A program made the position numbers and the translations under genes. Shown here piece by piece: positions 15,718 to 23,492 of a stretch of DNA of 64,000 nt. The notes beneath the pieces were generated by a model. It did not search any database. It was not told where the DNA came from and saw only the letters and a list, made by a program, of their open reading frames with translations. Position 1 is the first letter of the stretch; each line of letters opens with the position of its first letter. Source of the DNA: Isoptericola halotolerans (GTDB lineage: Bacteria; Actinomycetota; Actinomycetes; Actinomycetales; Cellulomonadaceae); NCBI RefSeq assembly GCF_003003075.1, contig NZ_PVTX01000002.1:310001-374000 (forward strand), written 5' to 3'.

Positions 15718-15925
15718 GACCCTCCCCGCTCTGTCATGGGACCTGAGAGTTTTGCCGGTCCGCCTGTACGGGGCGCGCCGGCTTGCACCGTCGGTGGGCC
15801 TCCGCCGAGGCGGGGGCCACTTTTCAGAGTTGCCTCGCCGTGACGGTACAGGGGCCTGAGAGATTCCCGGGGAGGGTTTGCTCCTTCGGCGCCGGCCCCG
15901 GGGGGCCGGGCTCTCCCGTCACGGT
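15718..15925 (-). promoter_or_regulatory. Tandem glycine riboswitch
   Basis: On the minus strand two gcvT-type aptamers follow each other. The first (about 15925-15846) begins CGTGACGGGAGAG and carries the ATCTCTCAGGC box. The second (about 15840-15718) has the AACTCTCAGGTCCC box followed by GACAG. Each has a GGAG/GCAA core. The arrangement before gcvP matches the established cooperative glycine riboswitch that turns on glycine cleavage when glycine is abundant. The second aptamer ends about 30 nt before the GTG, leaving room for control of the ribosome site. Confidence 0.93.
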
Positions 15926-15960
15926 TCGAGCGGCTGTGCGGTTGTCCGCGCAGTCTACCG

Positions 15961-23297: not shown

Positions 23298-23326
23298 TTG
23301 GCGTGCCGCGCCGTCGGGCATAGCGT
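23298..23326 (+). promoter_or_regulatory. Promoter of the micro-ORF
   Basis: TTGGCG (23298-23303) and TAGCGT (23321-23326) are separated by 17 bp. This reads toward the tiny ORF at 23361; it starts 8 bp after the NmrA-like stop. Confidence 0.6.
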
Positions 23327-23341
23327 CGTGCCTACGAACTG

Positions 23342-23355
23342 AAAGGAGGTGATCC
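23342..23355 (+). promoter_or_regulatory. Fourteen-base Shine-Dalgarno complementary to the 16S rRNA 3' end
   Basis: AAAGGAGGTGATCC is the exact complement of the conserved bacterial 16S rRNA tail GGATCACCTCCTTT. It lies five bases before GTG 23361. Normal sites pair over 4-7 bases. Confidence 0.85.
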
Positions 23356-23360
23356 GAGCA

Positions 23361-23399
23361 GTGAAGACTCTTCGGACCAGCGAGGTGGTCACGGGCTGA
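23361..23399 (+). CDS. Twelve-codon micro-ORF (leader-like peptide)
   Basis: GTG followed by 11 codons and TGA encodes MKTLRTSEVVTG. It has its own apparent promoter (23298-23326) and an extraordinary 14-base ribosome site. Its last four sense codons and stop form the left arm and loop of a perfect 12-bp hairpin (23384-23413). No gene follows on this strand, so it is not an ordinary attenuator of a downstream operon. Translation to the end would melt the hairpin. I do not recognise the peptide. Possible roles: a ribosome-titrating small RNA, a stand-alone micropeptide, or a decoy; none is shown by sequence. Confidence 0.6.
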   Translation: MKTLRTSEVVTG

Positions 23400-23413
23400 G
23401 TCCCGTGACCACC
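23384..23413 (+). terminator. Hairpin overlapping the micro-ORF stop
   Basis: GGTGGTCACGGG (23384-23395) pairs perfectly with CCCGTGACCACC (23402-23413) around a six-base loop that contains the TGA stop. There is no U-tract. Confidence 0.75.
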
Positions 23414-23416
23414 GGG

Positions 23417-23473
23417 ACCCGCGGGGGCCGTGCCATCGTCCAGCACGGCAGGAGACCACTCCACCCCGCGGGT
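23417..23473. terminator. Nested, probably bidirectional terminator
   Basis: CCCGCGGGG (23418-23426) pairs with CCCCGCGGG (23464-23472), and within it GCCGTGC pairs with GCACGGC around 23427-23449. On the plus strand TTCTTCC follows. It separates the micro-ORF from the convergent lipoprotein gene. Confidence 0.65.
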
Positions 23474-23492
23474 TCTTCCGTGCCTGCGGACG

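Follow-up and report, generated by a model that had tools for sequence, protein, structure and literature searches.

A divergent homologue of the actinobacterial small RNA Ms_IGR-5 in Isoptericola halotolerans with a conserved 12-codon reading frame

Relationship to Ms_IGR-5 and other described RNAs

The closest described relative of the RNA reported here is Ms_IGR-5 (Rfam RF02471), which is typed in Rfam as 'Gene; sRNA' and filed as non-coding. Significant numbers of ribosomal reads have been reported for MS_IGR-5 homologues, both from M. abscessus and from M. smegmatis data already in print; the same authors caution that non-coding RNPs can also yield footprints (PMC4974804). Three further reports give the RNA-seq validation of RF02471 in S. 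lividans as 'yes' (PMC8079986), describe the S. avermitilis homologue as an sRNA transcription unit (PMC8780764) and place the M. smegmatis transcript ncMSMEG15794c in overlap with IGR-5 (PMC10454040). The RNA may also be Streptomyces scr4389, an identification extrapolated only from locus tags. No description of an ORF in Ms_IGR-5 was found in the literature searched, which covers neither the first account from M. smegmatis nor Rfam's own entry, and searches with micropeptide terms, with the peptide string CEVAAR and with Rv0812 plus sRNA returned no literature match.

Several other systems resemble this family in part. SgrS and RNAIII are dual-function RNAs, similar in being regulatory-type RNAs with a short ORF; they differ from the present family, which keeps its frame and not its peptide and in which the codons themselves form the fold. 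Leader attenuators of the trp type are alike in that hairpin formation would have to compete with the translating of a short ORF; the RNA described here differs in having no co-directional downstream gene in the window. The Caulobacter sRNA CC2171 (RF01867) resembles the RNA in a GC hairpin and in AAAGGAGGUGAUCC, placed close to the 5' end, and was matched at 23333-23413 with 26.2 bits (E 4.5e-4) against a gathering score of 75; it differs in that 106 model positions stand against 26 bases of the RNA. The RNA is not a member of that family, to which it is possibly parallel in design.

The RNA was located in a stretch of 64,000 bp from the genome of Isoptericola halotolerans (NZ_PVTX01000002.1, positions 310,001 to 374,000), hereafter the window, the coordinates of which are used throughout (Table 1). 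No Rfam family was matched at the element at the gathering threshold. RF02471 was nevertheless found to align from end to end (model positions 1-184) with 23334-23481, at 41.2 bits (E 3.5e-8) against its gathering cut-off of 45 bits, which is a curation threshold. Orthologues within the genus fall on both sides of this value, with L007 (64.7), L012 (59.8), L009 (59.6), G013 (55.7) and G008 (48.4) above it and L002 (40.7), L006 (32.7) and G016 (28.1) below it. Since orthologues in the genus pass while the window copy fails, the RNA is called a divergent homologue and not a filed member. The suggestion of a preliminary description of this DNA that the element was undescribed does not, therefore, survive, and the RNA is, as judged from its sequence, a divergent and shortened homologue of the actinobacterial sRNA Ms_IGR-5. 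A model built in this analysis (R1), the training set of which included the window's own copy (L001), gave 105.4 bits at 23341-23482.

The window copy has in common with the loci passing the cut-off the Shine-Dalgarno (SD) sequence, the ORF, a hairpin termed P1 and the terminator; it differs in its lower score and in having no middle domain. In most relatives this domain lies inside the loop of P1, between the stop codon and the 3' strand of the hairpin, an interval of 4 nt in the window. The interval measures 3-4 nt in eight of 30 loci from the window's own order (the window included), 38-102 nt in the other 22 and 27-88 nt in 87 loci found with the Rfam model. Loss of the middle domain is a likely reason for scores below the cut-off, yet the short copy G008 passes. 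As the window's clade keeps the SD, the frame, P1, a pairing of GGAC with GUCC in the terminator loop and the terminator itself without a middle domain, these five elements are regarded as the core of the RNA.

With filters that lose weak matches, RF02471 was matched in 192 of 296 genomes of the class and 57 of 119 genomes of the order, and was unmatched in the remaining 104 and 62; it was matched in none of 14 control genomes, among them Corynebacterium glutamicum. Six families of the order (f4, f6, f7, f9, f19 and f20) had no match among the genomes listed, in apparent cases of loss or strong divergence. All 17 other genomes of the genus gave a DNA match at E 3.1e-13 or better.

Table 1. Coordinates of the predicted features of the RNA in the window
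Feature	Position	Strand	Remarks
Promoter-like pair	23298..23326	+	TTGGCG (23298), 17 nt, TAGCGT (23321); read from sequence
Whole RNA, divergent Ms_IGR-5 homologue	23334..23481	+	~148 nt; both ends inferred from model match
Extended Shine-Dalgarno, complement of 16S 3' tail	23341..23355	+	15 nt, GAAAGGAGGTGATCC
12-codon ORF	23361..23399	+	GTG start, TGA stop; encodes MKTLRTSEVVTG
GGAC (codons 5-6)	23374..23377	+	5' side of long-range pairing with terminator loop
Hairpin P1	23384..23413	+	codons 8-12 with 23402-23413
Terminator-type hairpin	23414..23476	+	inner hairpins, T-containing tail; apical GUCC 23438-23441

The extended Shine-Dalgarno sequence and the reading frame

The SD contains AAAGGAGGTGATCC, a 14-mer on the plus strand (23342-23355) which occurs once in the assembly, and the contiguous complement of the 16S tail extends to 15 nt, the runner-up on either strand of the window reaching 10 nt. 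This bears out the preliminary description, according to which the site was far longer than any other in the window and was followed after five bases by a GTG. No 16S gene was found in a search of the window's own assembly, and the tail sequence was therefore taken from relatives, GGATCACCTCCTTTCT being present in 15 of 30 loci fetched from eight relatives' genomes. To our knowledge the tail is identical across the whole class, the sequence itself having been seen only in the relatives of the window's genome. Complementarity to the tail at all 14 positions, with G-U pairs allowed, was found in 88 of 89 loci detected with the Rfam model and in 27 of 30 own-order loci. Among the 119 sequences, 175 of the 179 cells of the 14-mer which are not Watson-Crick pairs are G-U pairs and four are mismatches (these cells are not independent of each other).

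Three sets of loci were used. The own-order set consists of 30 fetched loci, the best DNA matches from 58 genomes searched. The Rfam model supplied 90 loci, of which L219 was dropped as not located (probably because a fixed 5' offset was unsuited to a locus cut at a contig end), leaving 89. A pattern search gave at least 120 loci, nine of them with two frames; seven were dropped (L139, which had no frame, and six in which the first of two frames was spurious), then L128, which had no terminator call, and 112 were used. In this last set the SD, GGAC and GAGGTG are fixed by the pattern itself. In the second, the invariance of the SD and of GAGGTG is partly a selection effect, since the Rfam model scores and rewards those conserved columns; the model does not as such encode how long the frame is or that it lacks stops.

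The ORF has 12 codons in all 30 own-order loci and in 87 of the 89 model-found loci, the other two having 13 codons by way of an in-frame insertion; the codon counts that follow cover the 87. Both the SD and the ORF, the absence of which from sister species had been named as refuting the preliminary reading, were kept in all 30 fetched own-order loci, including those of all 17 other genomes of the genus. The first codon is TTG, ATG or GTG in 86 of the 87 frames and never CTG. The single exception (L044) has ATT in the place of its relatives' TTG; initiation at AUU is otherwise rare, infC being an example. Codons 2-12 of the 87 ORFs contain no in-frame stop against 10.1 expected from column shuffles, and none of 2000 such shuffles was free of in-frame stops. 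Of the 89 loci, 85 end in TAG, two in TAA and two in TGA; the window copy has TGA. The preference for TAG (L031-L060, L181-L240) perhaps reflects release-factor-1 specificity, and the weak pairing of a candidate helix P2, described below, does not demand TAG.

The encoded peptide varies considerably. Codons 2, 3 and 4 hold 11, 12 and 13 different residues, respectively, in the 87 ORFs, while codons 8-9 read GAG GTG throughout, third bases included. Residues fail to vary only where their nucleotides are base-paired or fixed at the third position, and where GGAC is replaced by GGAU, codon 6 encodes Met or Ile in place of Thr with the RNA pairing kept. The family has a conserved frame, start and stop, as a translated RNA would; peptide conservation beyond the constraint on the RNA, as a micropeptide gene would have, was not found. 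In these alignments, conservation of the peptide does not exceed what the RNA fixes. As the peptide is not conserved beyond the RNA, and the frame is both conserved and woven into the fold, being translated probably matters more than the peptide. What appears to be new is that an sRNA family carries a conserved reading frame in nearly every copy examined.

GAGGUG at codons 8-9 (window 23382-23387, columns 47-52 of the alignment A1 introduced below) is itself complementary to the 16S core and, unlike the later pairs of P1, never varies in A1; it may be a second, masked SD-like site.

Fold of the RNA

The 148-nt stretch has a predicted fold of -84.8 kcal/mol (z -5.45). The perfect 12-bp hairpin which the preliminary description had placed around the stop codon was recovered at 23384-23395/23402-23413, with the stop inside its loop, and directly 3' of it, in the same RNA, lies a larger terminator-shaped hairpin (23414-23476) which that description lacked. 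The structure line given by cmscan for RF02471 has part of the SD paired to bases further on in the ORF region and lacks the pairing between GGAC and the terminator loop.

Covariation was assessed in alignment A1, which comprises 66 of 231 sequences; L151, L211 and L217, with doubtful terminator or P1 calls, are among the 231 and outside A1. P1, formed by codons 8-11 with the strand before the terminator, was found to be paired in 96.8% of cells with double changes at five of nine pairs, and the terminator in 93.4% of cells with double changes at 11 of 12 outer pairs, against only 34-44% for slid versions of the structure. GGAC in codons 5-6 pairs with the apical loop GUCC of the terminator in 66 of 66 rows of A1, two of which are compensatory. 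Of all 231 sequences, 227 have the reverse complement of the site within the terminator, three of the remaining four having a G-U variant there and the fourth being L151 with its doubtful terminator; in this larger count the string was sought anywhere in the terminator, and only the A1 count is position-specific.

The same pairing was followed in one family (f45, presumably the Nocardioides family), in which 36 of 294 genomes have a GGA site not ending in C, in every case GGAU. Thirty GGAU loci were fetched from this family, and in 29 of them the loop reads AUCC, the remaining one having GUCC and hence a G-U wobble; this is a reading by eye, the automated tally having given 20 AUCC, five GUCC and five unread, with the string located in the stem in four of the five GUCC cases. 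Of 30 genomes chosen for a tree, 21 have GGAU (20 with AUCC, one with GUCC) and nine have GGAC, all nine with GUCC (three of these loops were read by eye). An rpoB tree of 29 of the 30 genomes (G610, with a split rpoB, was left out) requires at least four changes of the GGAC/GGAU site, three of them forced by supported branches. The loop follows the site in 2.9 of 3 independent pairs (sign test p 0.25, where three pairs cannot reach significance). Taken together, the comparisons establish, at the level of sequence, P1, the pairing of codons 5-6 with the terminator loop, the frame and the 16S complementarity.

Two further helices were considered. An alternative 5' hairpin, in which GUCC of the SD pairs with GGAC, had no double change in 66 sequences; it was rejected as a covarying helix and is kept as a hypothesis, for which reason the ribosome switch proposed below is likewise inferential. 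Helix P2 (codon 12 and the stop with GCUGGC) was rejected, with 79.5% of cells paired and a central A-U pair that fails in 37 of 63 cases, and because of this failure it does not explain the UAG stop. The motif GGCGAAUNCC (A1 columns 177-187), situated before the 3' strand of P1, is conserved in copies with the middle domain.

Upstream of the RNA, the promoter-like pair reported in the preliminary description is present, and a sequence of the form TTG-N19-24-TANNNT was found ahead of the RNA in 69 of the 89 homologous loci, compared with 0.98 after base shuffling. A strict sigma-70 consensus scan found no promoter at the window element and a strict terminator scan no terminator.

Proposed function and alternative explanations

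The preferred reading is of a self-contained RNA which is also a 12-codon minicistron and in which ribosome loading switches the fold; we hold it to be evenly balanced between right and wrong. The RNA would be transcribed from its own promoter-like pair and would terminate itself. Its very strong SD would capture a 30S subunit, which would open the 5' hairpin and also the pairings that use coding sequence, namely P1 and the codon-loop pairing. Where initiation or elongation faltered or stopped, P1 and the loop pairing would re-form, so that the RNA would exist in two states, ribosome-loaded and folded. The output would be the balance of these states, expressed either in the stability of the RNA or in the exposure of another part of it to a partner, and the peptide would be a by-product. 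That loading and translation would open P1 and the codon-loop pairing follows from the frame being built of the RNA's own structural elements; a switch between two states, the output it would have and the benefit it would bring are what we infer.

The preliminary description had been right about a small RNA with a conserved short ORF behind a full-length anti-SD complement, and it is plausible that the fold ties this RNA to the availability of ribosomes, as suggested there. That a 'non-coding' actinobacterial family might be a free-standing translation sensor, in which the act of translating is conserved and neither the peptide nor a downstream gene is, can be put forward tentatively, at somewhat less than an even chance. 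The mechanics of such a sensor, with the 16S tail pairing over 14 nt and the codons serving as switch elements (P1 and the pairing of codons with the terminator loop), are offered with the same reserve. If true, an actinobacterial RNA regarded as 'non-coding' and widespread enough to be matched in 192 of the 296 class genomes would be a conserved minicistron that may gauge ribosome availability; selection would then bear on the act of translation and not on the peptide, with no gene in cis involved.

A base-pairing sRNA which acts in trans, for instance through its middle domain, and for which ribosome loading only tunes stability or availability, is unlikely. Promoter-like and terminator-like ends would suit it, dual-function RNAs such as SgrS and RNAIII exist, and Ms_IGR-5 homologues are treated as sRNAs in the reports by others; however, eight of 30 own-order loci keep the SD, the ORF, P1 and the terminator loop with a middle domain of 3-4 nt, and the conserved stretches that remain serve in cis.

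It is less probable still that the RNA is a trap or sponge for 30S subunits, with the SD titrating small subunits or shielding the 16S tail and the ORF reduced to a mere start codon. The maintenance of the 14-nt complementarity through G-U substitutions agrees with such a role, as does the predicted SD:16S duplex of -33.2 kcal/mol in the window against -9.9 kcal/mol for the 5' hairpin, in which the start codon and a part of the SD lie. A sponge, however, leaves unexplained why the frame has a fixed length, takes up insertions in frame and lacks stops, and why codons pair with the terminator loop, and a single RNA would presumably need very high abundance to titrate 30S subunits.

A micropeptide gene, the product of which would be the 12-residue peptide, mainly x-T-x-E-V, is distinctly improbable. 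E-V is encoded by all 87 of the 12-codon frames and T by 83 of them, the frames are free of stops, and peptide selection could be an alternative cause of the invariant GAG GTG. Against this, the conserved residues coincide with nucleotides that are paired in the RNA or invariant at the third position, codons 2-4 are free to vary, the residue at codon 6 changes while the RNA pairing persists, and the 89 loci encode 75 distinct peptides (start read as M). A conserved micropeptide as the product, which the preliminary description had entertained, is accordingly not retained.

A leader-peptide attenuator of a downstream gene is very improbable, for all that an SD, a short ORF and alternative hairpins look attenuator-like and that in two of 30 own-order loci (L023 and L024) the RNA is followed by an NmrA-like gene in the same orientation. 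In the window the next downstream gene is convergent, in agreement with the earlier claim that no gene on the same strand could be attenuated; this ORF, without a Pfam match, is present and convergent in seven of 30 own-order loci, and in 23 of 30, as in the window, the NmrA-like gene precedes the RNA in the same orientation. Elsewhere the neighbours differ by lineage, and the RNA has its own terminator-type hairpin. In L031 (family f22, presumably mycobacterial) an aminotransferase class IV gene is followed by the RNA and a convergent THAP4-like heme-binding gene, and in L193 and L230 the RNA converges with a pyridoxamine-phosphate oxidase gene. Clusters with aminotransferase class IV, THAP4-like and oxidase genes cover 29, 24 and 25 of 105 loci, respectively, in a clustering which contains many spurious stop-to-stop frames and for which Pfam was consulted on only 18 frames. 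Both large downstream clusters (24 and 25 loci) are convergent where Pfam recognised the gene, and the oxidase cluster lies upstream of the RNA in some loci, such as L057. A neighbouring gene as partner was rejected, as the gene clusters differ by lineage. The varying neighbours, the mostly convergent orientation of the downstream genes identified and the promoter-like pair argue for a free-standing transcript, and a co-directional downstream gene is conceivable in single lineages.

A chance match beside an ordinary terminator has a negligible probability, with ~9e-5 exact 14-mers expected in the window from base composition and all 30 fetched loci retaining both SD and ORF. Nothing was found in its favour; like attenuation and the conserved micropeptide, it was rejected or demoted on the evidence against it.

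Two riboswitches were also identified elsewhere in the window, a SAM riboswitch (RF00162) at 1858-1965 on the plus strand with 51.1 bits and a glycine riboswitch (RF00504) at 15834-15928 on the minus strand with 67.4 bits.
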